From a virus: 41,615 nt of DNA. Positions 5,772-33,535 of the stretch are shown piece after piece (position 1 is the stretch's first letter; each line of letters opens with the position of its first letter). The stretch spans positions 1 through 41,615 of IMG/VR virus record IMGVR_UViG_3300032246_000499; one strand, given 5' to 3'. A program made the translations under genes and the position numbers. Under the pieces are notes generated by a model. It did not search any database, was not told the origin of the DNA, and saw only the letters and a list, made by a program, of their open reading frames with translations.

Positions 5772-7291
5772 TAGTAATAACCTTTGCTTCTATTACTTTT
5801 AAAGTATTGAATTTCTTCTGGTTCGTCGTTTGGAAGGCGAATAAATCCACCCTGCCTAAATCGCATTAGTGCCAATGTTGTAGAGTCTACCAGATCGTCG
5901 TTAACCCCGCTAGGAAAATCATTACATTCCTCTATAACATCCTTTGCCCATCTACGGTTCGGAGCCCAGACAATCCCACTAGAAAACAAGTCTGATACAG
6001 CATTTACCCTAGACATTTTATCCTGCCCTTTACCCGGCGTAAACTCACCTACTGGAATACCCATGCGCCGCATTTCTTGATATAGTGCCGCCCCGTTTGA
6101 CTTCTTCTCCACCATAAACGCATCAGGCTCCCATTCCTTGTACTCTTCTAAAACAAGCTTTTTAAGGTCAGGAAACTCTAAGCGCTTCTTAATAGCATTT
6201 AACAAGATGATGTTGTAGTTATTAGTCTCTTCGTTATAGAACACGCCCCAAGTTGTTAAGGCGTTATAGTCTGCTCTATTATTAGTTTCTTGTGCTGCGT
6301 CTAGGGACATAATTGTAAACTCGCACTGCGGTGGGTCGTCTTTTTCCCAAGTTTGCCACCAATCCCTTTTAATAAGGGCGCCCTCTTCGCTTGTCGGCTG
6401 CTGTAAATACTGGGAATTCCAATATCTAACATCCAAAGACGCTTTCTTCTGCAGGAGTTCTTCGATTGTCCAAAACTCAGGCCACAGGGGTTTATCGTCT
6501 ATTATGGCAGGGAACTCCACAACCTCCCACTCTTCTGCATCCTCATTTTTGATCATGTGATTAATGATCTGCCCAGTTAAATCAAGCTTAGACCACCGAG
6601 TCATTACCACAATAATAGCGCCACCAGGCATAAGACGTTGAATTGGGCCAGCCTGAAACCATTCCCAAGCGGGTAAAAACACATCAGATCTACCTAGTTT
6701 GGCGTCTTGTTCTGAATGTGGATCATCAATAATAAATAAGTCTGCCCCGCGACCAGCAAGAGCGCCGCCAACACCGATAGCAAAATATTCACCATTAAAG
6801 TTCGTTCCCCATCTAGATGCTGATTTTGAGTCTACCTGTAGCTCTACTTGCGGGAATATGTCCTTATACAGGTCTGAACTAACCAAATTCCTGACTCTAC
6901 GACCGAAATTAACCGCAAGATCAGCCGTGTGTGAAGCCATAATAACCTTCTTTTGAGGGTACTTTCCCAAGAACCATGCGGGTGCCAAGTAAGATATAAG
7001 TTCTGATTTGCCATGCCTCGGAGCAATGTTAACAACAACGCGCTTCTTCTTCCCTGCAGCAATCTCTTCAAATATTCTAGCCAATTTAGCATGATGTGGG
7101 CCTACCTTATAACCGGGATATACGTGACTTACAAAATCTAGGAAATGTTCTTTCCCTTCTTCCTCTACTTTTAGCTTTTTATAGTTTCTTAATAAATCTA
7201 AAGTCTTTCTTTTCTGCGAATCGGACATTGTAGGCAGCGCATTTTCTAGCTGAACTATGTTTTCTGGGGTTAATTGCAGTTGTTGGGTCAT
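5771..7291 (-). CDS. terL: Terminase large subunit (packaging ATPase and nuclease)
   Basis: A 506-residue terminase, a normal length. It pumps DNA into the prohead and cuts the concatemer. The N-terminal ATPase has the Walker A variant PRHGKS at about 91-96, followed by a coupling-type segment (KKVIMASHTADLA), and the Walker B FIIDD at about 186-190 followed by PHSEQDAK. The C-terminal RNase H-like nuclease shows its acidic residues in MSLDAAQETNNRADYNA, in DAFMVEKKSNG and near the end in NDDLVDSTTLALMRF. The start overlaps the end of the putative TerS gene by 4 bp (ATGA), and the small gene for the 198-residue protein follows directly. Confidence 0.95.
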   Translation of the reverse strand: MTQQLQLTPENIVQLENALPTMSDSQKRKTLDLLRNYKKLKVEEEGKEHFLDFVSHVYPGYKVGPHHAKLARIFEEIAAGKKKRVVVNIAPRHGKSELISYLAPAWFLGKYPQKKVIMASHTADLAVNFGRRVRNLVSSDLYKDIFPQVELQVDSKSASRWGTNFNGEYFAIGVGGALAGRGADLFIIDDPHSEQDAKLGRSDVFLPAWEWFQAGPIQRLMPGGAIIVVMTRWSKLDLTGQIINHMIKNEDAEEWEVVEFPAIIDDKPLWPEFWTIEELLQKKASLDVRYWNSQYLQQPTSEEGALIKRDWWQTWEKDDPPQCEFTIMSLDAAQETNNRADYNALTTWGVFYNEETNNYNIILLNAIKKRLEFPDLKKLVLEEYKEWEPDAFMVEKKSNGAALYQEMRRMGIPVGEFTPGKGQDKMSRVNAVSDLFSSGIVWAPNRRWAKDVIEECNDFPSGVNDDLVDSTTLALMRFRQGGFIRLPNDEPEEIQYFKSNRSKGYY

Positions 7292-7848
7292 TTTCCGAGG
7301 GTTTTTATGTCTTTTGCCTCGACATCCACCACTTTTCCTCTAATTCCTTGCAAAATACCCATTAATTCCTTCTCTACTTCTTCAATTGGCTGCACTTTTA
7401 CTGTAACTTCGGTGCGTTTTTTAAAAGCATCTACCCCGTCTACCTCGCCAAGCTTAGTTAATGCCGAAATTCTAGCCTTTGCGTCCTTAGCATGTTCAAT
7501 TTCGTGGACTAAGTGATTAATTACATACATCTTATAGTCAGCTAGGTCGTCAACTAAAGAAACATTCATCTGGGCAACCATACCAGCTAAAAAAGCTAGG
7601 GTCTCATTAGGGTATTTAGCATAGTCGGGACGTAGAGTTGGGTCATCTAGCATCTGTTTCGCTAAAGAAACTGCTTGGGCTTGGTGTTCTGCGGTGGGTT
7701 CTATCGGGGTATTGTTTAAATCCGCTACTAATTTAATAGTGCGCACCCGCATATCCAGCTCTTCCTTTGGGGTAAGGTCTGGTAAAGCCTCAGTTGCCGA
7801 TTTAGGCAGGGGCTCGTTTTCATCAATATAGGGCACGATGGTGGTCAT
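7288..7848 (-). CDS. Putative terminase small subunit
   Basis: A 186-residue, mostly helical acidic protein placed directly before TerL with a 4 bp ATGA overlap, the usual place and size of a terminase small subunit, which recognises the packaging site. A polar N-terminus (MTTIVPYIDENEPLPKSA) is followed by helices (RTIKLVADLN, LAFLAGMVAQM, YKMYVINHLVHEIEHAKDA) and a C-terminal segment with EVTVKVQPIEEVEKELMGIL, which could be the oligomer or TerL-binding part. No helix-turn-helix stands out. First gene of the leftward operon; its promoter region lies at 7849-7912. The TerS call rests mainly on position and size. Confidence 0.6.
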   Translation of the reverse strand: MTTIVPYIDENEPLPKSATEALPDLTPKEELDMRVRTIKLVADLNNTPIEPTAEHQAQAVSLAKQMLDDPTLRPDYAKYPNETLAFLAGMVAQMNVSLVDDLADYKMYVINHLVHEIEHAKDAKARISALTKLGEVDGVDAFKKRTEVTVKVQPIEEVEKELMGILQGIRGKVVDVEAKDIKTLGK

Positions 7849-8476: not shown

Positions 8477-8545
8477 TGATACCAGTTATTTTTCGTCGGG
8501 CGTGTCAGGTGCGTGCGTGGCGGCTCGGGTTAAATAGCGTTTCAC
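8477..8545 (+). repeat. Dispersed intergenic repeat, copy 1
   Basis: Starts TGATACCAGTTAT, continues through a C/G-rich stretch with GCGTGTCA, and ends TAGCGTTTCAC. A second full copy lies at 9561-9621 and a partial one at 9405-9437. Each lies in non-coding DNA upstream of plus-strand genes, so this looks like a duplicated leader or control region. Confidence 0.6.
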
Positions 8546-8558
8546 GACCTAGTGAAAC
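8539..8558 (+). promoter_or_regulatory. GTTTCAC palindrome abutting the second early promoter
   Basis: GTTTCAC (8539-8545), 6 nt, GTGAAAC (8552-8558): a perfect 7 bp inverted repeat ending directly at the TTGACA -35 box at 8559. As DNA it is well placed as an operator or activator site; since it lies upstream of the -35 it is not in the transcript from this promoter. Related elements occur at 9615, 10274, 11239, 13363 and 15702. Confidence 0.65.
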
Positions 8559-8641: not shown

Positions 8642-9334
8642 ATGGCTAAAACCATTGTAGAAACTGAAGTAAAAGAGCCCGTTAATAACGGTTTAAATCT
8701 TGATAATTTGCAGACCGCTGTTTATCAGTTTGCTAGTTTATCGGGTAGTTCTACCAGCATCGCTAAAGAGATTTATTCTTTTGTGCCAAATTGGCTTGAC
8801 GGCGATCTCGATTCTAGCATTACTAATAGAGTTAATCGGGCTCTGTTGTTGCGCCACAAGGAAATCAGCTATTCAGAATATGGATATGCTGAAATCAATG
8901 GTTCGACTCATTTTGTTAAGGTGTATGAATTGATCGATGGCGTTGAAACTCAGATCGATCCTGAGTTGCGTAAGAAGTGCAAGAATGTAATGCGCATCGA
9001 TGCTGATCATGCACTTAGCTATACTGGTCAAGAATACGGTAAGTTAAAAACCAGTGGTGATTTAGATAAGCATAAAGCTATTGGCGAGTGGAGAACTAAA
9101 GGTAGTAAGTATATGTCCAATGTTAAGGGAGAGATCACTCGTAAGATTAAATCTCTAGTCGCACCAGAAACAAAGGGTAGAGCTGTAATCGCTGATTTTA
9201 GCGATCATGTTACAGAAGTATTCGCTGATTTAAAAAAGCGCTGTAAAACAAGTGTCGAGGCTCGTGGTGATACAACCGCAAACCCTGACAAGTTTGCCCT
9301 AGCTGTCAAGGCTTTTTGGGTAGCGTATAAGTAA
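8642..9334 (+). CDS. Early protein of unknown function (230 aa)
   Basis: The frame is open from 8552, but the promoter -10 at 8582-8587 and a GGAGAA ribosome site place the start at ATG 8642 (MAKTIVETEVKEPVNN). The protein is soluble and mixed alpha/beta, with a middle segment HKEISYSEYGYAEINGSTHF and a basic helical C-terminal half (SNVKGEITRKIKSLVAPETKG), ending AVKAFWVAYK. No known motif was found. It has its own promoter with an adjacent palindrome and a strong terminator after it, so it is a single-gene unit. Expression this early suggests host takeover or regulation; the basic C-terminal half could bind nucleic acid, which is a guess. Confidence 0.75.
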   Translation: MAKTIVETEVKEPVNNGLNLDNLQTAVYQFASLSGSSTSIAKEIYSFVPNWLDGDLDSSITNRVNRALLLRHKEISYSEYGYAEINGSTHFVKVYELIDGVETQIDPELRKKCKNVMRIDADHALSYTGQEYGKLKTSGDLDKHKAIGEWRTKGSKYMSNVKGEITRKIKSLVAPETKGRAVIADFSDHVTEVFADLKKRCKTSVEARGDTTANPDKFALAVKAFWVAYK

Positions 9335-9345
9335 GTAGTATTTTT

Positions 9346-9379
9346 AGCCACACTCTTAACGGGGTGTGGCTTTTTTTTT
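9346..9379 (+). terminator. Rho-independent terminator
   Basis: AGCCACAC (9346-9353) pairs with GTGTGGCT (9364-9371) across a 10 nt loop and is followed by a run of nine T (9371-9379). It ends the early gene at 8642-9334. Confidence 0.85.
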
Positions 9380-9404
9380 GCCCAAAATTTTTAGCCCTTG
9401 GCTT

Positions 9405-9437
9405 TGATGCCAGTTATGAGCCTGCGTGCGCGTTCAC
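9405..9437 (+). repeat. Dispersed intergenic repeat, partial copy 2
   Basis: TGATGCCAGTTAT at 9405-9417 matches the other copies at 12-13 of 13 positions, and is followed by a C/G-rich stretch ending CGTTCAC that resembles their later part. It lies just after the terminator. Confidence 0.45.
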
Positions 9438-9560
9438 AGCGTGTGCCATTACCTAAGATACTCATACACCACAGTCACTGCCCTAATACTAAGTCCCTAC
9501 CTTATTTACCTAGTTCACCTATGTATGACACATTGTTTAAGCGATGACCCCCAGTTAAAA

Positions 9561-9621
9561 TGATGCCAGTTATCTTTCGGCGTGCGTGTCAAGTTCGGGC
9601 TTCGCTAATATAGCGTTTCAC
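9561..9621 (+). repeat. Dispersed intergenic repeat, copy 3
   Basis: TGATGCCAGTTAT at 9561-9573, then a GCGTGCGTGTCA stretch, ending TATAGCGTTTCAC at 9609-9621. It parallels 8477-8545 with a deletion of about 8 bp. The right arm of its GTTTCAC palindrome is degenerate (ATGAATT at 9628-9634) and no gene starts close behind, so this copy may be decayed. Confidence 0.55.
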
Positions 9622-9720
9622 ACCTACATGAATTCTGATTCCACCCAATGATACTAAACTTAGTAACGAGAATAGTGTGTGCGTCGCTGAGACAAGCTGA
9701 ATATGATAGGATTTCGTGTT

Positions 9721-10114
9721 TGTTCCACGTTATAAGTAAAGTATGGAGATTTCTGTTCCAAAATGGAGTCGCTTGGAACAAGCGTAAGTGCTTGATTATG
9801 CTCAGTAAAACACGATCTGTTCCAATGTTCCAGCGTTTTTAGGGTATATAGGGAGTTGGGAGAAAACTAAGAGCAAGCCTTGCTTTCCTAAAGTGCAAAA
9901 CTATAACTACGAAAAATTAATGCAGAAGCCATACATACTCTCAAATCGCTGGAACAATGGAACAAACCACTATACTATACATATATTATAATATTATATA
10001 ATTATTATTATTAATAAAAACAAGGACTTACAGATTTCAAAAACTCGAAACTTGACTTGTTCCAAAATCTTTTAGTAAAGTTAATAAAACGGTTTTTGTT
10101 GGAACATTGGAACA
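9721..10114. other. Candidate replication origin: ten TGTTCCA/TGGAACA heptamers around an AT-rich core
   Basis: TGTTCCA or its complement TGGAACA begins at 9721, 9754, 9774, 9818, 9826, 9950, 9958, 10058, 10100 and 10108. Six of these form three pairs with an 8 bp period: 9818-9832, 9950-9964 and 10100-10114. Ten copies in 394 bp is far above chance (about 0.05 expected for a random sequence). Between the second pair and the single copy at 10058 lies a very AT-rich stretch (about 9967-10020, mainly TATA and ATTATT runs) that could unwind. No gene is supported here. Iterons plus an AT-rich core is the classic plan of a replication origin; an operator array for a regulator is the alternative. 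Confidence 0.6.
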
Positions 10115-10185
10115 GACCTCATAAGCATCATCTCTTTACATATAAGCCTTACACACACCTAAAAAAGTTACCCTAACGACCCATT

Positions 10186-10208
10186 TATATGTCAAGTTGT
10201 TGTATAAT
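10186..10208 (+). promoter_or_regulatory. Promoter with TATATGT upstream box and TATAAT
   Basis: TATAAT at 10203-10208, with TATATGTCAAGTT at 10186-10198 upstream and CGACCC before it. The block matches 20 of 23 positions with 11087-11109, in front of another early gene. There is no good -35 at 17 bp. ATATGTCAAGTT is the exact reverse complement of AACTTGACATAT, which overlaps the -35 boxes at 8052 and 8559, so a shared regulator may bind it. Confidence 0.6.
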
Positions 10209-10273
10209 AGAAGTGTTGAGGAACGAATTGTTTGTCAACCTAGTGAAGTGCCATGTGTGTTGCGTAATATAGC

Positions 10274-10293
10274 GTTTCACACCCCTGTGAAGT
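10274..10293 (+). promoter_or_regulatory. GTTTCAC leader hairpin or operator
   Basis: GTTTCAC (10274-10280), 6 nt, GTGAAGT (10287-10293), preceded by ATATAGC. The last two positions break perfect DNA symmetry but still pair as G-U in RNA. It lies downstream of the promoter at 10186-10208, hence in the leader, and 26 nt before the ATG at 10320. Confidence 0.6.
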
Positions 10294-10319
10294 TAGTTCA
10301 GTTAATTAAGGAGAATATT

Positions 10320-10505
10320 ATGGGCAGAGTTAAACAGTTAGCAATGAGTGAGTATGAAAAATATTTAGCCACAAGGGAAAAGCAAATGAAGTTAGAGTTT
10401 GCTGAGAACGATCAGGACATAGCCCAATACCATGCGGAATTCAATGCGTGGCTAGATGCTTACGAGAGGTCATTCGGTAGTGCGGGTAAAGAGGGGGAGT
10501 TATGA
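10320..10505 (+). CDS. Small helical early protein (61 aa)
   Basis: The start is ATG 10320 with an AAGGAG ribosome site at about 10308-10313; the open frame reaches further upstream but crosses the promoter. The protein MGRVKQLAMSEYEKYLATRE is charged and helical to its end, with no motif. It is the first of four overlapping small genes: its TGA overlaps the next ATG as ATGA. Confidence 0.65.
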   Translation: MGRVKQLAMSEYEKYLATREKQMKLEFAENDQDIAQYHAEFNAWLDAYERSFGSAGKEGEL

Positions 10506-11128: not shown

Positions 11129-11233
11129 ATGTTAAAGAGTGTGTTTAGTGATTTCGGTGTCAAGGTGTTGTTAGTATTGTTGTGGACAGTAGTCATAGCC
11201 CACTTTATGAAGTTGCATGGGGTGTGGTTTTAA
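11129..11233 (+). CDS. Single-span small membrane protein (34 aa)
   Basis: ATG 11129 with an AGGAG ribosome site (about 11118-11122), TAA 11231-11233. The product MLKSVFSDFGVKVLLVLLWT continues VVIAHFMKLHGVWF: a short polar N-terminus, one membrane helix (VKVLLVLLWTVVIAHF) and a short tail. It sits right behind its own promoter. Single-span proteins of this size in phages include holin-like and membrane-perturbing early proteins; nothing decides between them. Confidence 0.5.
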   Translation: MLKSVFSDFGVKVLLVLLWTVVIAHFMKLHGVWF

Positions 11234-11238
11234 GTTAG

Positions 11239-11258
11239 GTTTCACCAATTAGTGAAGT
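11239..11258 (+). promoter_or_regulatory. GTTTCAC leader hairpin or operator
   Basis: GTTTCAC (11239-11245), CAATTA, GTGAAGT (11252-11258), with two G-U-compatible positions at the stem base. It lies between the 34-residue gene and the ATPase module, 34 nt before the ATG at 11293, followed by the same type of leader (AGTTCAATTAAGTTC, then AAAGGAG). Confidence 0.6.
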
Positions 11259-12210: not shown

Positions 12211-12262
12211 TTCAATTTAGTTAATCAATCAGTGTTTGATCATAAGAAAGGTAGTGAATAGC

Positions 12263-13339
12263 ATGAGTAAAGTAAATTTTAGTGCAAAGGTTTCGATCGA
12301 CGAAACTAAGAACATCATCAAGAAAATTGGTGAGCATTTGACACCTGTCGTAGTAAGTGAACCTGGAGTTGGCAAGAGCACGCTTCTTAAGATGTTACAA
12401 GAGGACATGGGCGATTCTTACGACTACATCTATGTGGACTGTCCTGTAAAAGATATGTCAGACATAGCCATGACTATCCCCAATCACGAAACGAAATCCC
12501 TTGAATACTATGTGTCAACGCTATTCAAACTAGATAGTCCTAAGCCAAAGGTCATCATGCTAGACGAGATGATGAAAGCCCCCAAGCTATTGCAGATTAT
12601 CTTTACCAGACTAACGCTAGAGAGAATGGTAGGTGATGTGTCGTTGCCCAAGGGTAGCATAGTGTTTGCGACAAGTAACAATTCATCAGATGGTGTAGGC
12701 GATAGTATGCTGGCACACGCTGGCAATCGGGTATGTAAGGTAGACATGGCAAAGCCTGAAGCTAAGTCGTGGCTGATATGGGCTGATAAGAATGATGTAT
12801 CTAAGGTCATCATGGCATGGGTCGCTATGTATCCCCGTTGTTTGCATAGCTATCTAGATGGTGGTGCGGAAGATAATCCATACATATTCAACCCTAAGAA
12901 AGCGGGACAGTTGTCGTTCGTATCCCCTCGTTCGTTGGCAAAGGCATCTCATATTGTTGATGTTCGTGATGAGTTAGGTGAGAACGCTACTATGTGTGCG
13001 TTGGCTGGCACGTTAGGCGAATCTGCGGCGAGAGATATGTCGGCTTTCCTTGCCATAGAAAAACAACTACCGAGCATGGAAGATGTGTTGAAGAACCCTA
13101 AGACGGTGAAAGTTCCTGACGAGGTATCGGCTACGCTTATGCTGATGTTTCAGGCATTAGATTATCTAAAGACACAAGACGATATGAGTAAGTTCATGGA
13201 GTTCGTCAATCGGGTAGCTAGTTCAGAGATTCAGGCTATCTTCTTTAGTTTGATATTAAGTAGTAGTAAGACTGTTCGTATTGCTCGCAACAACAATGAA
13301 GTTAAGGATTGGGCAAAGGACAATCATCAGTTGATGTAA
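12263..13339 (+). CDS. MoxR/CobS-type AAA+ ATPase
   Basis: The start is taken as ATG 12263 (MSKVNFSAKVSIDE); an upstream in-frame TTG at 12236 has no better ribosome site. The 358-residue protein has Walker A EPGVGKST at 33-40, Walker B VIMLDE at about 97-102 followed by MMKAPK (compare 'DEINRAP' in MoxR), a sensor-1 FATSNN and a sensor-2-like SPR (SFVSPRSLAKA). MoxR ATPases work with VWA-domain proteins as chaperone or metal-insertion machines; CobS/CobT in cobaltochelatase is the best known pair. The VWA protein is encoded next, so a two-part machine is likely. The target in the infected cell is unknown. Confidence 0.85.
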   Translation: MSKVNFSAKVSIDETKNIIKKIGEHLTPVVVSEPGVGKSTLLKMLQEDMGDSYDYIYVDCPVKDMSDIAMTIPNHETKSLEYYVSTLFKLDSPKPKVIMLDEMMKAPKLLQIIFTRLTLERMVGDVSLPKGSIVFATSNNSSDGVGDSMLAHAGNRVCKVDMAKPEAKSWLIWADKNDVSKVIMAWVAMYPRCLHSYLDGGAEDNPYIFNPKKAGQLSFVSPRSLAKASHIVDVRDELGENATMCALAGTLGESAARDMSAFLAIEKQLPSMEDVLKNPKTVKVPDEVSATLMLMFQALDYLKTQDDMSKFMEFVNRVASSEIQAIFFSLILSSSKTVRIARNNNEVKDWAKDNHQLM

Positions 13340-13362
13340 GTAGGTGTGCTGGCTAAAAACTG

Positions 13363-13382
13363 GCATCACCTTATAGTGAAAC
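13363..13382 (+). promoter_or_regulatory. GTTTCAC-family element before the VWA gene
   Basis: GCATCAC (13363-13369), CTTATA, GTGAAAC (13376-13382), followed by GC as in the complement of GCGTTTCAC. The left arm matches the consensus at 5 of 7 positions, so stem pairing is weaker than in other copies. It lies 23 nt before ATG 13406. Confidence 0.5.
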
Positions 13383-13405
13383 GCAATTTAACAAAGGAGT
13401 TAAAA

Positions 13406-14674
13406 ATGGATCAGGAAACAAGACTCAAGCGTAGTCATATTATGCTTATGAAGAATGTTGAAACAACATGGTATTCGGGTATCTTAATGATGGGCGTATC
13501 TGAAGTATCGGATAATAAATTCACTGCTTATACAGATGGTGTAAACAAGCGGTATTCTCGCCCATTCATGTCTGATATAAAAGATGATGCGAAGTTGCGT
13601 GGTCTTATCATGCACGAAAATCTTCATGTGGCACTAAAGCATATCCCAAGATGTAAGGACTTATTCAAGGAAAACCCCAAACTAGCTAATGTGTCAGCAG
13701 ATTTTGTTGTAAATGACATCATTGAAAACTTTAAGGACAAGGCTAATTGTGTATTACCTGACGGTGCGCTTTATCACCCCATGTTTCGTAATTGGTCGGT
13801 GCGTGAAGTCTACGCATACTTAAAGAAAGAGCAGGAAAAGCAAAAGCAAAAACCCGAAGATGGTGGGGGTAGTGGTGGCAAGGGTGATAAGGGTGATGAT
13901 GAAAATAACGATTCACCTAATGATGAAAAGGTAACTGACTTGGAGAAGTTATTGAAGAACCTTGATAACGCCAAGACTTTAGATGAACATGATTGGGAGT
14001 CGGGTAAGGAACTTACACCTGAAGAAGTTAAAGCGGTGGAAGAGGGGATTGATAAAGCACTACGCCAAGGCGGTATTCTAGCTGGTCGCATGGGTGCGAA
14101 GATTCCTCGTTCTATCTCAGACTTGTTAGAACCCAAGGTTGATTGGCGTGAAGTGTTGCGTGAGTTTGTTACGTCGGCTACTAAGGGCAAAGATGAGTTT
14201 ACATGGCGTAAGTTTAATAAGCGTATGTTAGCCAATGATTACTACTTACCGTCGTTAGAGAATGAATCTATTGGTGAGGTGGTGGTAGCTATTGATACAT
14301 CAGGGTCTATATCAAATGAACAGATAGCGGAATTTGCATCAGAGTTAGCTTCCATCTGTGATACTTGTGACCCCGATAAGGTGCGTGTTTTATGGTGGGA
14401 TACTGCGGTGCATGGTGAGCAATTATTCTCAGGGAACTATACAGAGATTGCTAAGATGCTAAAGCCTATGGGTGGTGGCGGAACTATGGTTTCATGTGTC
14501 AGTGAATACATAAATAAAGAATCAATAAAGGCTGAATGTGTGCTGGTCTTTACCGACGGATATTTAGAGCCTGACATCAAGTGGGACATTGTTACACCAA
14601 GCCTGTGGTTAGTAACGCAGAACAAGGCATTTGAACCCCCAAGCGGTAAGAAAATATTACTTAATAAGGAGTAG
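13406..14674 (+). CDS. VWA-like protein with N-terminal putative metallopeptidase domain (DUF2201 type)
   Basis: The start is ATG 13406 with AAAGGAG upstream (the frame is open from 13346). 422 residues. The N-terminal domain has HENLHVALKH at 70-79, an HExxH zinc motif with a further His, as in the DUF2201 N-terminal putative metallopeptidase domain. A Pro/Glu/Lys/Gly/Asp-rich linker follows (about 140-185). The C-terminal VWA-like domain has the MIDAS signature DTSGSIS at about 297, the second-site Thr in GGGGTMV and the Asp in FTDGYLEPD. VWA domains bind a divalent ion and partner proteins; with the upstream MoxR ATPase this forms a CobS/CobT-like or RavA/ViaA-like pair. A zincin plus MIDAS suggests proteolysis or remodelling of a host target. 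Confidence 0.85.
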   Translation: MDQETRLKRSHIMLMKNVETTWYSGILMMGVSEVSDNKFTAYTDGVNKRYSRPFMSDIKDDAKLRGLIMHENLHVALKHIPRCKDLFKENPKLANVSADFVVNDIIENFKDKANCVLPDGALYHPMFRNWSVREVYAYLKKEQEKQKQKPEDGGGSGGKGDKGDDENNDSPNDEKVTDLEKLLKNLDNAKTLDEHDWESGKELTPEEVKAVEEGIDKALRQGGILAGRMGAKIPRSISDLLEPKVDWREVLREFVTSATKGKDEFTWRKFNKRMLANDYYLPSLENESIGEVVVAIDTSGSISNEQIAEFASELASICDTCDPDKVRVLWWDTAVHGEQLFSGNYTEIAKMLKPMGGGGTMVSCVSEYINKESIKAECVLVFTDGYLEPDIKWDIVTPSLWLVTQNKAFEPPSGKKILLNKE

Positions 14675-20795: not shown

Positions 20796-20945
20796 ATGGA
20801 AAAGAAGTTTTGCCAATCGTGCCAAATGATGAAGCCGATAGAAGAAGTAAAGTTAGTTAAAACGGTGCATAATAAACGGCGATGGAAATGTTTAAGTTGT
20901 ATTGGTAAAACCTCTACAAAAGTATATTCTAGTGAGAAAAAATGA
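20796..20945 (+). CDS. Small zinc-ribbon protein (49 aa)
   Basis: ATG 20796 directly after the polymerase stop, TGA 20943-20945 overlapping the next ATG as ATGA. MEKKFCQSCQMMKPIEE carries one CxxC and KCLSCIGK the second, spaced 22 residues apart, with a basic stretch (HNKRRWK) between: a minimal zinc ribbon likely to bind nucleic acid. Possibly a polymerase-associated or regulatory factor; function unproven. Confidence 0.65.
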   Translation: MEKKFCQSCQMMKPIEEVKLVKTVHNKRRWKCLSCIGKTSTKVYSSEKK

Positions 20946-21796
20946 AAAAGATATGCGTAGTTAATTTCTGGGATGGGGCGTTTGATGGGGACTTTTTTGA
21001 GTTCTTTTTTTGTACCGCTTTTGATGGCATAGAATATGTGCTTAGTCCCCACGAAGCTGACATAGTTATTAGTTCAGTCTTTGGGCACACACAAACAGAT
21101 CCTAAGAAAACAATTATGTATATTGGTGAAAATATACGCCCTAACTATTTAGGATATAACCACTCCCTTTCATTTGACTATGACAACTATGATGGTCGCA
21201 ATTTTCGTTTGCCTTTATGGTGGAGTCGCCTTGCATGGGATGGGTTTATTCAAAAGCCAAGAAAACATAACGCACAAAATCATGGGTACGAGCAATTAAT
21301 AGACATTAAAAGTTTAATGCAACCACGCAAACTAGATATGAGTATTAAAGATAAGTTTTGCGCCATGATTGCTGGCAATCCCGAAGGACTGAGGGTTAAT
21401 TTGTTTAATTCTATATCGCAGTATAAGCAAATAGATGGGTATGGATTAATGTTTGGTAACTCATTACGAAAATCTAAGTTTACCGTACTCCCTGAGTATA
21501 AGTTTTGCCTATGCCCTGAGAATTCTGTATATGACGGTTATGTAACGGAAAAGTTAATTGATGCCTATGCTGGTCTGACTGTGCCTTTATATAGTGGCGA
21601 TGTATCAGTAAATGAAGACTTCAACAGCAAAGCGTTTATTAATTATCAAGATTTTAAAAGAACAGAAATATTTGTACACGATATAACTTGGTTTGATAGA
21701 GAGCTTGGTTTGTATAAAGATATGTATGAGCAACCATTATTACTTAAAAAGCCAAGCCTTGATGATGCGATTCAATTTGTAAGGAGCATTACATGA
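20942..21796 (+). CDS. Glycosyltransferase family 10 (alpha-1,3-fucosyltransferase-like)
   Basis: A 284-residue protein with the GT10 C-terminal donor-binding motif at about 190-220: FCLCPENSVYDGYVTEKLID, followed by LTVPLYSG. In GT10 enzymes this Glu-Asn-Ser ... Tyr-Val-Thr-Glu-Lys motif binds GDP-fucose. The N-terminal part (KKICVVNFWDGAF, ADIVISSVFGH) is the acceptor-side Rossmann half. No membrane helix, so it is cytosolic. It starts the sugar/modification cassette and overlaps both neighbours by 4 bp. Likely target: host surface glycan or a virion protein; the sugar is inferred from the family only. Confidence 0.85.
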   Translation: MKKICVVNFWDGAFDGDFFEFFFCTAFDGIEYVLSPHEADIVISSVFGHTQTDPKKTIMYIGENIRPNYLGYNHSLSFDYDNYDGRNFRLPLWWSRLAWDGFIQKPRKHNAQNHGYEQLIDIKSLMQPRKLDMSIKDKFCAMIAGNPEGLRVNLFNSISQYKQIDGYGLMFGNSLRKSKFTVLPEYKFCLCPENSVYDGYVTEKLIDAYAGLTVPLYSGDVSVNEDFNSKAFINYQDFKRTEIFVHDITWFDRELGLYKDMYEQPLLLKKPSLDDAIQFVRSIT

Positions 21797-22005
21797 AAAT
21801 AAAAACAAAATTACTCAAAGAAAAAAAAGATGGTTCAGCTATTTGCCAACTTGATTTGGATAGGGAAGCTAAGGATTGGCTAATAGGCGAGGGGTTTGTA
21901 TCCGTCTTAAGTAAAGCATTAGATATGTCAGAGTCGTTTACAAAGAAGCAACCTAAACGAATAAGAGAGTTAGTAAAAGATTTAGATATAGACGGGCGTT
22001 GCTAA
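21793..22005 (+). CDS. Small protein, unknown (70 aa)
   Basis: MKIKTKLLKEKKDGSAICQL begins two strands, followed by a helical part (DREAKDWLIGEGFVSVLSKA) and a basic C-terminus. ATGA overlap with the GT10 gene and a one-base TAATG overlap with the radical SAM gene, so it is translated within the cassette. The compact alpha/beta pattern resembles small phage proteins of unknown function. Confidence 0.65.
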   Translation: MKIKTKLLKEKKDGSAICQLDLDREAKDWLIGEGFVSVLSKALDMSESFTKKQPKRIRELVKDLDIDGRC

Positions 22006-22874
22006 TGAAATCTAAGTACGGCATACAGCACCCACACTCGCCAGTAATGGAGCTAACCACTATGGTTGGTTGCCCGCTTATGTGTAGCTTTTGCCCACAG
22101 GAGAACTTACGGGATAACTATGGCGATAAGACCAAGTACCTAACACCAGTTGATTTAACCCATGTTCTAACAAAGTTACCCCGCAACACCCGCATAGATT
22201 TTTCAGGTATGTCCGAACCTTGGGCTAACCCAGATTGCACTCAAATGCTGGAAGAAGTCCTATACATGGGTTTTAACATAGCGATCTATACGACCCTGTA
22301 TGGCATGACAAACGAAGATGCGCATAGGGTTAAAAAAGTATTAGAAGATCACCCTAAACAGGTAGAAGTAATTATGTTTCACTTGCCCGACTCCAATGGC
22401 AACATGAAGGGCTGGAAGTATTCAGAAGAATGGGTAGAGTCACTAAAGATAATGACTCAGCTTGATCTACCCTGCGGTTTTGGTGCTATGACTATGGATG
22501 GTTCAGGTAAGGTTCATGCTGATCTACAAGATATGATTGGTGACTTAGCTGGCTGGAAAGGACATACTAGGGCAGACAGTTTGAATGTAGAGCAAGTAGG
22601 TGACCAAGCATTAAGCATCACTCCACGTCATCAGTTTGCTTTAACTTGTGCCTCTACACCATTCTATGACCGCAATGTATTACTACCCAATGGGGATGTA
22701 GTTCTTTGTTGTATGGACTACAACCTGAAACACGTTATAGGGAACTTACTAAAGCAAACCTACGATGAAATATTTCAAAGCAAGCCCTTACTCGATTTGA
22801 TTGCTATGAACGAGAAGCCTGAGTTTAACAAGTGCAGTATATGTAAGTCGTGCGATAACGTTAGGAAGATATGA
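22005..22874 (+). CDS. Radical SAM enzyme with SPASM-like C-terminus
   Basis: ATG 22005 (in a TAATG overlap) is preferred over the TTG at 21999; 289 residues. The CxxxCxxC motif that binds the SAM-cleaving 4Fe-4S cluster is C23-C27-C30 (VGCPLMCSFCPQ). SAM-binding strands follow (RIDFSGMSEPWANPD). The C-terminus has a Cys-rich SPASM-like region: FALTCASTPFYDRN, VVLCCMDYNLKHVIGN and CSICKSCDN, for auxiliary clusters. SPASM enzymes modify peptides, sugars or cofactors. Its neighbours suggest a sugar or glycan substrate, but none can be named. Confidence 0.85.
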   Translation: MKSKYGIQHPHSPVMELTTMVGCPLMCSFCPQENLRDNYGDKTKYLTPVDLTHVLTKLPRNTRIDFSGMSEPWANPDCTQMLEEVLYMGFNIAIYTTLYGMTNEDAHRVKKVLEDHPKQVEVIMFHLPDSNGNMKGWKYSEEWVESLKIMTQLDLPCGFGAMTMDGSGKVHADLQDMIGDLAGWKGHTRADSLNVEQVGDQALSITPRHQFALTCASTPFYDRNVLLPNGDVVLCCMDYNLKHVIGNLLKQTYDEIFQSKPLLDLIAMNEKPEFNKCSICKSCDNVRKI

Positions 22875-23614
22875 TTGACCAATTAAAAGAATTAATTAAA
22901 GCATTACGCCCAGTAAAAACTAAGTTTGAGCTTATACGAGTAGGTGGAGCTAATGATGGTGGCTATCTTATTCCTGATGATTTAGAGGGCGTAATAGCTT
23001 GTTATTCACCTGGAGTTGCTGATACAGCTAGCTTTGAAATAGACCTTTGTAAGCGTGGCATTGGTTCACACCTTGCGGATGGTTCAGTAGATGGCGCCCC
23101 TAAAGGATTTACCCCGCTATCGTTTACCAAAAAGTATTTAGATGGATACGACGATGAAACAAACATAACTTTAGATACTTGGACTAATGTTGATCAAAAA
23201 ACTGGAGATATGTATTGGTGGAAGGGCGATTGTATTTTGCAAATGGATATTGAAGGTGGCGAATATGCAACCTTAATAGGTACTCCAATTGAAATATTAC
23301 GGCGCTTTAGGATTATTTGCGTAGAGGTACATGATACCGATGCGTGGTTTAACCCTATCGCTTGGAATATTGTATCCACATTTTTTGCCAAGTTAACTCA
23401 GGAATTTCATGTGGTACACAACCACCCTAATAATAATTGTGGGAATGTAACGGCTGGTGGGGTACTTTTGCCACGAGTATTTGAATTAACTTTGTTGCGC
23501 AAGGATCGGAGTGAGGCGCTTGGTTTTGTAGAAGACTTACCCCATCCATTAGATTCCCGTAACGTATTAGATATGCCTGAATTAAAACTACCAAAGGAGT
23601 GGTATGGAGCTTAG
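22871..23614 (+). CDS. FkbM-like SAM-dependent methyltransferase
   Basis: A 247-residue protein, ATGA-coupled to the radical SAM gene. It starts MIDQLKELIKALRPVKTKFE, then VGGANDGGYLIPDDL, CYSPGVADTASFEID (region of the SAM-binding loop) and LQMDIEGGEYATLI at about 120-133, the D-IEGxE motif typical of FkbM methyltransferases. It ends with CVEVHDTDAW-like and HPNNNCG segments. FkbM enzymes O-methylate sugars or polyketides. With glycosyltransferases on both sides, methylation of a surface or virion sugar is likely. Confidence 0.75.
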   Translation: MIDQLKELIKALRPVKTKFELIRVGGANDGGYLIPDDLEGVIACYSPGVADTASFEIDLCKRGIGSHLADGSVDGAPKGFTPLSFTKKYLDGYDDETNITLDTWTNVDQKTGDMYWWKGDCILQMDIEGGEYATLIGTPIEILRRFRIICVEVHDTDAWFNPIAWNIVSTFFAKLTQEFHVVHNHPNNNCGNVTAGGVLLPRVFELTLLRKDRSEALGFVEDLPHPLDSRNVLDMPELKLPKEWYGA

Positions 23615-23765
23615 GGATGAATTTGCTAAATCAATTATGGCTGGCATTATTGCGGCTGACTGGAAATTTGACTTAACTAATAAAACATGGGACGAGATTG
23701 CGGTTCGTCGTGCCTATGAGATAGCAGATGCCATGATTAAAGAACGGGAGATTAATAATGTATAA
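23604..23765 (+). CDS. Small phage protein of the 'AY-IADAM' type (53 aa)
   Basis: ATG 23604 with AAGGAG about 7 nt upstream, TAA 23763-23765. MELRDEFAKSIMAGIIAADW and the C-terminal AVRRAYEIADAMIKERE resemble a common small phage/prophage family with an N-terminal 'R-FA---M-G' helix and a C-terminal 'AY-iADAMl--R' helix, function unknown. It overlaps the methyltransferase by 11 bp and the next gene by 8 bp. Confidence 0.65.
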   Translation: MELRDEFAKSIMAGIIAADWKFDLTNKTWDEIAVRRAYEIADAMIKEREINNV

Positions 23766-23928
23766 GAACATTGGACTTGGAATACTTTTTATTGCTTTGA
23801 TTCTAGCGTTTAGTATGCGTAGCAACAACTGCCAAAAAGTAACGGTAGAACCATATAAACAGAACCAAATGGTAGATGGTTGTGTAATGCAGAAGTCAGG
23901 CGATAATTGGATAAAAACATGTGGATAA
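23758..23928 (+). CDS. Small membrane-anchored protein (56 aa)
   Basis: ATG 23758 with GGGAG about 8 nt upstream, TAA 23926-23928. MYKNIGLGILFIALILAFSM is an N-terminal membrane anchor or signal peptide; the outside part has three Cys (NNC, DGC, KTC). No lipobox is clear, so a Rz1-like lipoprotein is not supported. Possibly an envelope protein; function unknown. Confidence 0.55.
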   Translation: MYKNIGLGILFIALILAFSMRSNNCQKVTVEPYKQNQMVDGCVMQKSGDNWIKTCG

Positions 23929-24137
23929 ATATTAAACCAAAAGAAATTATTTACGATCTTATTGATGGACACGAAGAAATAGCAAAGTTAAAAATGCGCC
24001 AATTAATTAATCAAAAATATGGGTTTGTAATAATGTCAAATAAGACTGGAATACCTCCTAAAAGTTTAATTCGTATGCTGTCAGACAAAGGAAACCCAAC
24101 TAGCCGCAATTTATTTAAAATACTGCGCAATTTATGA
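23919..24137 (+). CDS. HTH antitoxin/regulator-like protein (72 aa)
   Basis: The ATG at 23919 is preferred over a TTG at 23907. The C-terminal half, NKTGIPPKSLIRMLSDKGNP followed by TSRNLFKIL, is a Cro/HigA-type helix-turn-helix as found in 'addiction module antidote' proteins, where this helix pattern ends 'GNPT---L-K-L'. The N-terminal part is helical (EEIAKLKMRQLINQ). No matching toxin gene is adjacent. It may regulate the cassette or act as a free-standing antitoxin. It overlaps both neighbours. Confidence 0.65.
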   Translation: MWINIKPKEIIYDLIDGHEEIAKLKMRQLINQKYGFVIMSNKTGIPPKSLIRMLSDKGNPTSRNLFKILRNL

Positions 24138-24859
24138 CAACATTTACAACAGAAGACAGAATGGAAGCAGAACGCAAACCTCGCATTATGGTAATCACCC
24201 CGACCACTGGGAAAGATACGATTAATCGTGCTATGGAAAGTGTGACTAACCAGACTATTCCAACAGAGCATTTGATTGTGGAAGACGGCAAGCTAACCAA
24301 TATGCATATCTTTGAAACAGGGATGAGGAAAGTAATGTGTTTGCCCGAAAACGTAGGGGGTAACGGCTGGTACGGACACCGAGTCTATGCGGCTATGCCA
24401 CTAATGGTAAACGCTGATTACATTTTGTTTTTAGATGAAGATAATTGGTTCGAGCCAAATCATGTAGAGACCATGATTAACAAGATTAAAAGTAAAAACT
24501 TAATGTGGGCTTATAGTTTGAGGAGAATATGTAATGAAGCTGGAGAATATATATGCGATGATGACTGCGAATCACTCGGTCGCTGTCCGACGTTTTACGA
24601 TAGCACTCTTAATTTTGTTGATACTAATTGTTATTGCTTTCGGCGTGAATTCTTGGTTACTGTGGCGCACTATTTCTACGGTGGCTGGGGTGCAGACCGC
24701 CCCTTCTATAAAGCTACCAGCACAGCTTTGCCTGCCTTCGGATGCACAGGAGAGGCTACGGTTAATTACCGAGCGCCCGAAAGACTACTTGAGATGTTTA
24801 GAGAAGGCAACAAACTAATGAAAGACGCATACAAAGTATTACCTTGGAGAATGAAATGA
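24134..24859 (+). CDS. GT-A fold glycosyltransferase (family 2-like)
   Basis: A 241-residue protein, ATGA-coupled. The nucleotide-binding start is RIMVITPTTGKDTINRAMES followed by VTNQT, the family 2 opening. The metal-binding D-x-D-like site is FLDEDNWFEPNHV at about 99-110. The C-terminal part has CFRREFLVTVAHYF and WGADRPFYKA, typical of the acceptor half. It probably transfers a sugar from a nucleotide donor in the cassette pathway. A second frame inside this gene (24534-24818) has a ribosome site and a membrane helix. Confidence 0.75.
   Translation: MTTFTTEDRMEAERKPRIMVITPTTGKDTINRAMESVTNQTIPTEHLIVEDGKLTNMHIFETGMRKVMCLPENVGGNGWYGHRVYAAMPLMVNADYILFLDEDNWFEPNHVETMINKIKSKNLMWAYSLRRICNEAGEYICDDDCESLGRCPTFYDSTLNFVDTNCYCFRREFLVTVAHYFYGGWGADRPFYKATSTALPAFGCTGEATVNYRAPERLLEMFREGNKLMKDAYKVLPWRMK
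24534..24818 (+). CDS. Possible overprinted gene: single-span membrane protein inside the glycosyltransferase gene
   Basis: A 94-codon frame lies wholly inside the glycosyltransferase gene in another plus frame. AGGAG at 24521-24525 stands 8 nt before ATG 24534, an ideal ribosome site. The product begins MKLENIYAMMTANHSVAVRR, then has a long membrane helix (FTIALLILLILIVIAFGV, then NSWLLW) and a 45-residue polar tail with two Cys. The plan, N-in helix with periplasmic tail, fits an inner-membrane or lysis-type (spanin/holin-like) protein, and no other lysis gene is visible. Chance remains possible; the outer gene is certainly the main one. Confidence 0.35.
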   Translation: MKLENIYAMMTANHSVAVRRFTIALLILLILIVIAFGVNSWLLWRTISTVAGVQTAPSIKLPAQLCLPSDAQERLRLITERPKDYLRCLEKATN

Positions 24860-29923: not shown

Positions 29924-30232
29924 ATGCCACGAAACTATAGTGAAAAACTTTTATTAGATGTATATAAAGAAGGACAAACTGAACTTGGAAAAATCTTAGC
30001 TTTGGCTTGTGTAAAAAACAATTTACCAGCTATATATGTTGCTAAGGTATTTGGGGTATCTAGGATGTCTATTCACAGTTGGTTTCGTGGTAGTGATATT
30101 CGTGGAAAAAACCGTAAGAAGATTGAAGAATTTCTTGACCAAATAGAACAAGATGTTAAGGCTCAAATATTACCAGCACTTACACTCTCAGAGGCTAAGA
30201 AATATATTGAATCTATCATAAACAAGGAATAG
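29924..30232 (+). CDS. Helix-turn-helix DNA-binding protein (102 aa)
   Basis: ATG 29924 with AAGGAA upstream. The HTH is LPAIYVAKVFGVSRMSIHSW followed by FRG, a clear Cro/C1-like recognition pair (VAKVFGVSRMSIHSWFRG) at about 35-55. Flanking helices carry many Lys. It could regulate the middle/late switch or bind the origin. It is a candidate reader of the repeated operator elements, but nothing links them directly. Confidence 0.75.
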   Translation: MPRNYSEKLLLDVYKEGQTELGKILALACVKNNLPAIYVAKVFGVSRMSIHSWFRGSDIRGKNRKKIEEFLDQIEQDVKAQILPALTLSEAKKYIESIINKE

Positions 30233-30516: not shown

Positions 30517-33357
30517 ATGATAAAAGAATTTTATGAGAAAGCATTGCCATCGCAGGGCGTTTATTGTGCAACAGGAATTGACCCAGTTAGTAAAAAGGCG
30601 GTTAATAAGTTTGCAGAAACGCTTGATGAATTGTTTGAACACCTTGAGAAGCATAAGAAAAAAGGGTTCAATACTTTTGTTGCGATGGGAACATTTGAGG
30701 GATTTAGTAGGAAGGCTGATGATTGCCTCTATTTAAAATCTTTCTTTATTGATTTAGACGTAGGCCCTGAGAAAGACTATGACACTAAGGATGAAGCGCA
30801 AGCCGCCTTATCTAAACTAATAGAAGTAGCTGGATTACCTGAACCAGTTTGTATTGATTCTGGTGGGGGTATACACGCCTACTGGATAATGGATGAGGAC
30901 ATCCCTAAAGATGAATGGTTGATTTACGCAGAGAAGTTTAAAGCCCTTTGCATGAGCCACATAACCATTGATCCTGTTGTTACCGCAGACGCGGCTAGGG
31001 TATTACGTTGCCCAGACACATACAACTATAAGTTTACTCCTCCTTTATTAGCGACTATATTAACTGATGAGCTACATGTTTATAGTTTTCAGGAATTTAA
31101 AGAATTCATAGGTATAGAAGTAGAAAAACCCACCACTAATCTAATGGACTTATTACCCAAAGGATTAGATGAAGATACTAAGAAGATGCTTAAACTAGAT
31201 AACTTTGAAGTTAAGTTTGCAAAGATAGCTGACAAAAGTATGGAAGGTGGTGGATGTGACCAAATAAAATACGCTATTGAACATGCGGATAAGTTAACCG
31301 AACCTGTATGGCGTACTACCCTATCAGTAATTAAATTCTGCTCTGACGGAGACGTTTGGGCCCACGAACTGTTTAAAGATGATAAACGATATTCTAAAAA
31401 AGATACAGACGAAAAACTCCGCACCATCCCCGGAACCCTCTCTTGCAAGGAAATTGACAGGATCAATCCAAATGTGTGCCCTAACTGCCCCCATTTTGGA
31501 AAGCACAAAAACCCCCTCTTCCTTGGAAAAGAATTTAAACCCGCCCCCTCCGATACAGAAACCGAAGAAGTACAAGAAACAGAGGAGGTCACAGTTCGGG
31601 ACAAAACGAATACCCAAAAAATTCCAGACCTCCCCGAATACTTAGCTCCATTTGTACGGGGAATATACGGCGGACTTTATTACCAGCCTTCCCCAGTTTT
31701 TAATAAGACTACTAAGAAGTTTGAAGACCAAGATGCCATACTTGTATTGAGCAACGATTTGTATCCATTTAAAAGGTTAGTTAGTCCGCATGACGGTGAG
31801 TGTTTAATGATGCGTTTACATTTGCCTCATGATGCGAGCAGGGAATTTTTAGTACCAATGAAGCATGTCTATGCTTTGGATAAATTTAGGGAAATTATGT
31901 CAAGTAACGGCGTGTTTCCGCCAGCTAAAGGAGATGTGATCTTGCAACAGTACGTGATTAAGTGGGGCCAGTATTTACAAAATACCGATAGGGCAGAAGA
32001 AATGCGTATGCAGATGGGTTGGACAGATAGTAATTCTTTTGTTATTGGTACTAAAGAGTATTCTAAGGAAGGAATATTTGAAGCGCCATCTTCTCCTTTT
32101 GTGCGGGGTTTATCTAAGTTTTTAACTGTAAAAGGTACTTACGAACGCTGGAAAGAGTCCGTTGATATGTTGAACCAGCCGGGCTATGAAATGCACGCCT
32201 ATGGACTTCTTTGTGGCTTTGGTGCCCCTTTAATTAAATTTACTAATGTAAGTGGTTTTACAATTAGTTTTACTGGTGAATCGGGTAGTGGTAAGACAGG
32301 GGCTATGTATGCTGGGTTAAGCGTTATGGGTAATCCTAAAGAGCAGGCTGTTTTTGAAGCCACGGACAATGCGTTAACCAACCGTATGGTAATGTTAAAA
32401 AACTTGATGTATGGCATTGACGAATCGTCTAACCACAAGCCTGATAAGATAGCGGATTTAATTCATAAGATTTCACAAGGTTCCGCCAAGATACGTTTAC
32501 AAGGTTCTGTAGATGCTGAACGAACACACCTTATAGGGGCCCAGACTATACTGTTTACAACAACTAATAATCCATTAGTTGAAAAGCTTGGTACATTTAA
32601 AGAGTTTGCAGACGGTGAAAATGCTCGATTAATTGAATATTTAGTTGGTACGCTTCCCGGTTTAGATAAAGACGCTGAGTTTATATTTGATGCATTACGC
32701 TATAACTACGGTCATGCAGGCCCCCGTTTTATTGAAGAAGTTATTAGGCTTGGTGATACTGAAATACGGTCTACGATTGATAGGTGGAAAACTAAGTTTG
32801 ATTTAGATTTTGGACGTAAGACTGAGTATCGTTATTACAAAGCCTCCATTACTGCTCCGTTTGCAGCGGCAGAGATTGCTATTAAAGCCGGTATTATTGA
32901 TTTAGATTTAGAGCGTGTTTACTCAGTAGTTATGGATAAGATGTTAGGCATAGTTAATAATGTTGTACAAGTTAACAAGCAAGATTATGAAAGCGTAGCC
33001 GCAGATTTTATTAATAAGCATATTCGGAATTTTTTAGTTGTTATGGCAGATAATAAAATTCGTTCTGAACCCACATCACATACAGGGTTAATGGGTAGGG
33101 TTGATATTGAAACTGGGGAAATATTTGTTTCAAAGACAGAGCTTAAAAAGTATTTAGCTGAACGCCGTATTGCCGTTGCGCAATTTGAAGTGGCACTTAA
33201 AAAGCAGGGTATCTTATTACCCGGACCGCCCAGTGGTCGTATGCGGCTTGGTACAGGTTGGAAGGGTGGTATTGATATGAACGTCCGTATTTATACATTT
33301 AATATTAAGTTGCCAGATTTATGGACTAAGGAAGAAGTTGAACCAGCAGGAGCCTGA
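30517..33357 (+). CDS. AEP primase fused to DUF927-type helicase
   Basis: A 946-residue replication protein. The N-terminal primase region shows the archaeo-eukaryotic primase pattern: KSFFIDLDVGPEKDYD (hydrophobic-Asp-x-Asp), then CIDSGGGIHAYW (the S-x-H motif) and a later VTADAARVLRCPDTYNYK. A linker with four Cys (about 290-330, NPNVCPNCPHFGKH) may bind zinc. The C-terminal DUF927-like AAA+ helicase has Walker A GESGSGKTGAM at about 586-594, Walker B in LMYGIDESSNH and a sensor Asn in FTTTNNPLVE. It should prime and unwind at the fork for the family A polymerase, as in other phages with fused primase-helicases. It is the last large gene of the early strand. Confidence 0.9.
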   Translation: MIKEFYEKALPSQGVYCATGIDPVSKKAVNKFAETLDELFEHLEKHKKKGFNTFVAMGTFEGFSRKADDCLYLKSFFIDLDVGPEKDYDTKDEAQAALSKLIEVAGLPEPVCIDSGGGIHAYWIMDEDIPKDEWLIYAEKFKALCMSHITIDPVVTADAARVLRCPDTYNYKFTPPLLATILTDELHVYSFQEFKEFIGIEVEKPTTNLMDLLPKGLDEDTKKMLKLDNFEVKFAKIADKSMEGGGCDQIKYAIEHADKLTEPVWRTTLSVIKFCSDGDVWAHELFKDDKRYSKKDTDEKLRTIPGTLSCKEIDRINPNVCPNCPHFGKHKNPLFLGKEFKPAPSDTETEEVQETEEVTVRDKTNTQKIPDLPEYLAPFVRGIYGGLYYQPSPVFNKTTKKFEDQDAILVLSNDLYPFKRLVSPHDGECLMMRLHLPHDASREFLVPMKHVYALDKFREIMSSNGVFPPAKGDVILQQYVIKWGQYLQNTDRAEEMRMQMGWTDSNSFVIGTKEYSKEGIFEAPSSPFVRGLSKFLTVKGTYERWKESVDMLNQPGYEMHAYGLLCGFGAPLIKFTNVSGFTISFTGESGSGKTGAMYAGLSVMGNPKEQAVFEATDNALTNRMVMLKNLMYGIDESSNHKPDKIADLIHKISQGSAKIRLQGSVDAERTHLIGAQTILFTTTNNPLVEKLGTFKEFADGENARLIEYLVGTLPGLDKDAEFIFDALRYNYGHAGPRFIEEVIRLGDTEIRSTIDRWKTKFDLDFGRKTEYRYYKASITAPFAAAEIAIKAGIIDLDLERVYSVVMDKMLGIVNNVVQVNKQDYESVAADFINKHIRNFLVVMADNKIRSEPTSHTGLMGRVDIETGEIFVSKTELKKYLAERRIAVAQFEVALKKQGILLPGPPSGRMRLGTGWKGGIDMNVRIYTFNIKLPDLWTKEEVEPAGA

Positions 33358-33535
33358 GTGGTTGTTTCCTTTTGAGGGGATGGGTGTAGGGGATAGCTTT
33401 TTTATCCCCACCCTAAAACCCGCTTCGCTTCTTTATATAATTGACACTGCTTCAAAACGTGCTGGTTTTAGAGTGAAGATTTACGTTACTACTAAAGAAG
33501 GGTATCTGGGCGTACGCACATGGCGTGTTGCTTAA
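33338..33535 (+). CDS. Small conserved phage protein (up to 65 aa), start uncertain
   Basis: The conserved-looking core WLFPFEGMGVGDSFFIPTLK through EGYLGVRTWRVA is a common short phage protein pattern ('F-----M--GDSF--P' and 'G-R-WR'), function unknown. There is no ATG before the core: candidate starts are TTG 33338 or TTG 33362, with AGGAG at 33347-33351 favouring 33362. It overlaps the primase-helicase end and its TAA shares TTAA with the stop of the opposite-strand virion gene. Confidence 0.6.
   Translation: MNQQEPEWLFPFEGMGVGDSFFIPTLKPASLLYIIDTASKRAGFRVKIYVTTKEGYLGVRTWRVA

Follow-up and report, generated by a model that had tools for sequence, protein, structure and literature searches.

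What is the function of a dense array of short repeats in a long non-coding gap of a phage genome? The array lies in the DNA of an uncultured water-borne phage, an IMG/VR virus record of 41,615 bp, and this whole stretch is called the window below. A preliminary description had taken the array for an iteron-like origin of replication with an unknown, probably dimeric binding protein. The origin proved to be the best-supported reading, with a conserved layout, phased spacing, an AT tract on a fixed side and primase-helicase neighbours in its favour, whereas the part concerning the binder was not supported. We consider it likely from sequence comparisons that the array is the phage's replication origin, of the iteron type, and that it is read by a self-loading primase-helicase, W946, encoded in the same window. 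The coordinates of the relevant features are collected in Table 1.

Table 1. Features of the candidate origin and of its proposed initiator gene.
Feature	Position	Strand	Remarks
Non-coding gap with the origin candidate	9335..10319		985 bp; ORF end at 9334, next start at 10320; rightward genes on both sides
Outer left heptamer TGTTCCA	9721..9727	+	Same offset in L004 and L005
Outer left heptamer TGTTCCA	9754..9760	+	Same offset in relatives
Outer left heptamer TGGAACA (reverse)	9774..9780	-	Same offset in relatives
Inner left pair TGTTCCA-A-TGTTCCA	9818..9832	+	Heptamers at 9818 and 9826, 8-bp period; anchor of the pattern in at least 119 viral stretches
Long inverted repeat, left arm	9818..9853	+	Pair plus GCGTTTTTAGGGTATATAGGG; 83% complementary to 9929-9964
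Long inverted repeat, right arm	9929..9964	-	Inner right pair at its end; complementary to the left arm; arms recur in relatives
Inner right pair TGGAACA-A-TGGAACA	9950..9964	-	Heptamers at 9950 and 9958; left pair 117 bp away; helical phasing of the spacing in relatives
AT tract, proposed DNA unwinding element	9965..10022	+	58 nt, 90% A+T, G absent on the plus strand
CAnnnACTTA motif	10021..10030	+	CAAGGACTTA; conserved
Outer right heptamer TGTTCCA	10058..10064	+	Same offset in relatives
Outer right pair TGGAACA-T-TGGAACA	10100..10114	-	Heptamers at 10100 and 10108; same offsets in relatives
Proposed initiator W946, 946 aa	30517..33357	+	AEP primase-polymerase, DUF927 helicase and C-terminal winged helix
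W946 residues 855-935, predicted winged helix-turn-helix	33079..33321	+	Proposed heptamer reader; model pLDDT 85
Codon of W946 residue 924	33286..33288	+	Arg in the window; covaries with the heptamer word

All ten exact TGTTCCA/TGGAACA heptamers described between 9721 and 10114 were found in place. Their density is far above chance, as had been claimed, the maximum over 2000 mononucleotide shuffles being 4 per 394 nt. In the window as a whole there were 16 matches, compared with 5.25 expected from dinucleotide shuffles, and 16 was reached in none of 100 such shuffles. Six of the heptamers are indeed arranged as three pairs, each with a period of 8 bp, and the pairs occur in both orientations, one on the plus and two on the minus strand. 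A feature that the preliminary description had missed is a larger, imperfect inverted repeat that has the inner pairs as its ends; arms similar to it, GTTTTTTAGG...CCTAAAAAC, recur in many relatives. The AT-rich stretch said to be surrounded by the heptamers was also confirmed, but the surrounding is not symmetrical, because the stretch comes after the second pair. No match to the DnaA box consensus that we used was found in the gap.

We also noticed four related 28-nt elements (TAGCGTTTCAC...GTGAA) at 8529-8556, 9605-9632, 10264-10291 and 11229-11256, most of which fold into a short hairpin. Two of them sit shortly upstream of the starts at 10320 and 11293, and in relatives a different hairpin (TTAGCGTCCCACGCATGCGTGG) was seen close to the arrays. 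It is possible that these elements represent an early-leader RNA hairpin with a changed stem.

The array could be followed in related phages, a check that had been proposed for it. The search pattern was TGTTCCANTGTTCCA-(102 to 132)-TGGAACANTGGAACA, with 28 fixed bases, for which we estimate less than one match by chance; IMG/VR contained at least 119 stretches with a pair, about 117 bp and an inverted pair. All ten sites lie at identical offsets in two close relatives, although one of them, L004, is 83% identical here with many gaps. Among the matches listed, the arrays contained 6 to 17 copies within 800 nt (median 11); in the 106 of 122 loci that were orientable by neighbouring genes, they lay between a leftward terminase/portal operon and a rightward early operon.

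The distance between the inner pairs was also examined. Among the matches listed, it was mostly 103-109 or 114-120 bp in 64 independent cores and never 110-113 bp, with minorities near 96 bp and between 122 and 131 bp. This phasing was matched in none of 5000 simulations, and it agrees with the spacing of 26 independent cores built from a variant word, TGTTCTA. It follows from the clustering that the inner pairs are probably on the same face of the helix, and this arrangement points to a protein complex that may bridge or wrap the DNA.

The AT tract keeps to one side of the pairs. Among the matches listed, the 55 nt to the right of the right pair were 82% A+T and those on the left side 63%, and the right side was the richer one in 101 of 103 oriented loci; the tract on the right contained on average 1.7 G and 8.1 C. 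The CAnnnACTTA motif followed the AT tract in 65 of the 99 loci among the matches listed, compared with 1.7% of background windows. In relatives (e.g. L023, L006 and L018) the tract often consists of repeated triplets, TTA, CTA or CTT, on a single strand, and such tracts resemble the DnaA-trio consensus.

Named phages gave no DNA matches to the array region or to the 25-kb core, and no relatives of the 305-aa and 74-aa early proteins encoded beside the array were found among them. TGTTCCA arrays were absent from the named distant relatives Pag-Yong1, 023Pt_psg01, DSL-LC04, HTVC023P and HTVC027P; in the corresponding gap, pairs of other words were present in 023Pt_psg01 (TGTGCCA) and in Pag-Yong1 (TGTCATACA). 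A literature search for TGTTCCA in connection with origins returned nothing relevant.

The same pattern was found in 8 of 84,980 bacterial and archaeal genomes. Six of these had enough flanking sequence, and in five the large ORF beside the array was a recognisable primase-helicase, either of the VapE type (L130, and L133 and L136 via homology to L130) or of the D5/DUF5906 type (L134 and L135); in the sixth, L131, this place is taken by a 422-aa ORF of no assigned class. Similarly, VapE (by resemblance to L130) stands beside the array in the viral contigs L117, L121 and L124, D5/DUF5906 does so in L014, and L106 has a D5/DUF5906 gene at a distance of 1.9 kb. Prophages and gut phages are among these unrelated elements. 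Arrays of other words were located in a gap of about 300 bp directly after a D5/VirE-type gene in Streptococcus 315.6, Staphylococcus 2638A, Enterococcus phiFL4A and Listeria LWP01. Because primase-helicase genes adjoin the array in unrelated elements, it appears to be tied to replication modules, and not to packaging or regulation.

The CAnnnACTTA motif recurs as AAACAAGGCACTTAGAC next to the VapE-type arrays of L121, L124, L133 and L136, and on both sides in L135. A ACCACTTA priming site, which resembles the motif in the window, has been reported for the SCCmec origin (PMC7581432), and CAnnnACTTA is possibly a priming site as well.

The preliminary description had recognised no initiator gene in the window. 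This was wrong, since SaPIbov1 Rep and SCCmec Cch, both known initiator helicases, are homologues of W946. W946 matched PF06048 (DUF927) with 82 bits, and its profile matched 5dgk (SCCmec Cch) with an E-value of 7e-16 and 8tch (SaPIbov1 Rep) with 2.6e-12, the helicase homology to both spanning 517-925 of the profile. The match to NF047345 had an E-value of 2.8e-8 and was nevertheless far below the cut-off of that model. Foldseek returned 6zp9, 5dgk and 8tch; the best match of the AEP primase-polymerase fold was the cyanophage S-2L PrimPol (6zp9), and the predicted C-terminal winged helix was structurally most similar to the Cch C-terminus and to TcpK bound to repeat DNA. For full-length W946, the structure model reached only moderate confidence (pTM 0.39).

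At least 597 relatives of W946 were found. A homologue was present in 14 of the 19 array-bearing contigs searched, including every contig longer than 40 kb, and the five contigs lacking a match are short fragments; all tested TGTTCTA contigs longer than 30 kb also contained one. The gene is 20 kb away from the array in the window and about 16-19 kb away in relatives, which speaks against the origin reading, as SaPI, SCCmec and most of the prophages found here have the two side by side. The lack of a DnaA box in the array, the GC skew and the moderate confidence of the full-length W946 model also weigh against this reading.

SaPI Rep uses its C-terminal domain to recognise an iteron origin; Cch, a DUF927 protein, is a relative of SaPIbov1 Rep, and the C-terminus of Cch2 binds the Cch2 iterons on its own (PMC7581432). 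The winged helix of P4 alpha binds origin repeats (PMC4234260), and TcpK reads tandem 9-nt repeats mainly via its beta-wing (PMC6137059). Judging from these homologies, the C-terminal domain of W946 is the most likely reader of the array. The dimeric binder that had been proposed is not indicated: the relatives of W946 are oligomeric helicases whose C-terminal domain reads the repeats (PMC7581432). Bridging of the phased pairs by a multimer therefore seems more likely than binding of a simple dimer.

Relatives that were found through W946 and lacked TGTTCCA pairs mostly carried seven to thirteen copies of TGTTCTA at the corresponding place, and TGTGTCA, TGTGCCG, TGTGCAC, GGTTCCA and ATTCCA were found as further words; the word of G017 is TGTTCCA. 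The changed-word relatives that we inspected had a similar pair layout, an AT tract and the ACTTA motif. Two of the arrays have peculiarities of their own. A perfect DnaA box, TTATCCACA, directly adjoins the outer TGTGCCG sites of the G018 array (in the contig of L165, near 35,700). In L319 (G056), positions 5946-6600 hold an extended array with many TGTTCTA copies upstream and interleaved ATGTCAAGTT/ATGTCCAGTT repeats, followed by the standard core; this is possibly a duplicated origin.

Changes of the word were compared with changes of the protein in 52 homologues of W946 to which a word had been assigned. On the helicase tree, there were at least five independent changes to TGTTCTA. In the first test, with 12 TGTTCTA genomes, residues 506, 870 and 924 were picked out, but control proteins gave similar column numbers. 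After 13 more genomes and three more lineages had been added, only residue 924 survived, and it was the sole perfect column of 920, splitting TGTTCTA from all other words. This residue, located in the last strand of the wing, is Tyr (Asp in one lineage) with TGTTCTA and is never Tyr or Asp with other words. Residue 870 (Gln versus an aromatic residue) separates words in two lineages only, and no more than a single between-word difference could be assigned to one residue, which limits the case for W946. When matched clades were randomly relabelled, a perfect column turned up anywhere in 0.4% of the trials and within the winged helix in 0.1%. No perfect column was found in seven control proteins (six and the neighbouring HTH protein), for which the samples were partly smaller. 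We regard the covariation as good, though not conclusive, evidence for reading of the heptamer by W946, and a wing-first reading like that of TcpK would account for residue 924.

The same comparison bears on the other possible readers. An operator is a very improbable reading; a repressor or activator, such as the 102-aa HTH protein encoded at 29924-30232, would there control divergent early and late promoters. The array does lie between divergent transcription units and the HTH gene is conserved in 49 of the 52 genomes, but the protein has no word-separating column (best 0.927), an operator with 6-17 sites grouped about an AT tract and phased pairs would be unusual, and the array is common to unrelated replication modules. 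Autoregulation by the initiator is possible as a second role of the array.

Binding by the small subunit of the terminase, which would make the array a pac site, is very improbable. The unrelated elements have their array by primase-helicase genes and not by terminase, although throughout the clade it is upstream of the terminase operon. The 186-aa protein encoded at 7288-7848, which adjoins the large subunit and could be the small one, has no perfect word-separating column (best 0.964). Repeats and DNA wrapping would be used by a terminase small subunit likewise, but packaging offers no obvious role for the AT tract or for CAnnnACTTA. An attP site was rejected as extremely improbable: direct and inverted short sites about a central stretch look like the arm-type sites that flank the core used by a tyrosine integrase, but an integrase gene (PF00589) was found in none of 18 large array-bearing or related contigs, nor was a conserved crossover core found between the pairs.

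For an origin read by W946, we infer the course of initiation from the homologues. Monomers of W946 would bind single heptamers via the C-terminal winged helix. On the inner pairs, whose spacing suggests the same helix face, and on the outer sites, two sets of subunits could come together, bridging the DNA or wrapping it. The adjoining G-poor AT tract would then melt, the DUF927 helicase domain would load itself there, and the N-terminal primase-polymerase domain would prime, possibly near CAnnnACTTA. Extension would fall to the family A polymerase of the phage (18936-20792). GC skew, which had been named as a check of the origin, was uninformative, its minimum being at the gene-strand switch 2.3 kb from the array; the GC-skew result is reliable only for genomes with rightward early genes.

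Several other genes of the window attracted our attention. At 12236-14674 a MoxR-like ATPase (phrog_1297) is followed by a metallopeptidase-like/VWA protein (DUF2201), and this arrangement occurs in most array-bearing contigs. A cargo island between the DNA polymerase and the exonuclease (20942-24859) contains, as judged by eye, two glycosyltransferases, a radical SAM protein and a methyltransferase; its genes had no PHROG matches. A leftward ORF of 2028 aa at 33532-39618, also with no PHROG matches, is partly conserved in relatives.

Because W946 has so many relatives, the origin layout is probably common to hundreds of uncultured aquatic phages. If the reading is true, these phages acquire a mapped replication start and a named initiator, and the array can be used as a sequence tag to locate origins in metagenomic phages. 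To our knowledge, few residue-to-base assignments exist for the initiators of SaPI, SCCmec and P4. With phages in which both the word and the winged helix have changed, a natural series would be at hand for direct tests of how self-loading initiator helicases recognise their sites. A wider proposal, of which we are doubtful, is that TGTTCCA and its one- and two-letter variants might form a general, evolvable origin code: in phages whose bacterial hosts differ widely, the winged-helix tails of DUF927, VapE and D5/DUF5906 proteins would read it, always in the form of two inverted pairs in helical phase and often with a melting tract alongside, and a wing residue would switch the word.

How does this origin compare with known systems? 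In SaPIbov1, sets of iterons flank an AT-rich region. Short iterons are common to the SaPIbov1 and SCCmec origins and the window, where they stand in both orientations near an AT-rich region. W946 shares with SaPIbov1 Rep and SCCmec Cch the DUF927-family helicase homology, and its predicted winged helix is a candidate counterpart of their C-terminal DNA-binding domain. It differs from both in its fused AEP primase-polymerase and in the word, TGTTCCA; their origins are directly downstream of the helicase gene, unlike the distant one in the window, and an integrase was not found in its related contigs. The P4 repeat, TGTTCACC, resembles TGTTCCA, and the P4 alpha helicase is of the D5/DUF5906 type. 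P4 alpha has a primase of the Toprim type, in contrast to the AEP and DUF927 domains of W946, but, as proposed for W946, it is one protein for recognition, helicase activity and priming, with a winged helix on origin repeats (PMC4234260). In pRN1, ORF904 combines, like W946, an AEP primase-polymerase, a helicase and a C-terminal winged helix, and the origin is non-coding (PMC4234260); this origin is, however, a 100-bp stem-loop downstream of the gene that has no iterons, and the ORF904 helicase belongs to another class. Iteron plasmid origins, which use Rep and DnaA, also have repeats beside an AT-rich unwinding tract, whereas the array in the window has no DnaA box and its proposed initiator is the helicase itself; no Rep_3 or RepA-type initiator was recognised in the window. 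The proposed origin would work like those of SaPI/Cch and P4, yet it is not filed as a SaPI-type replicon, because it lies away from the helicase gene and its initiator carries a fused primase.
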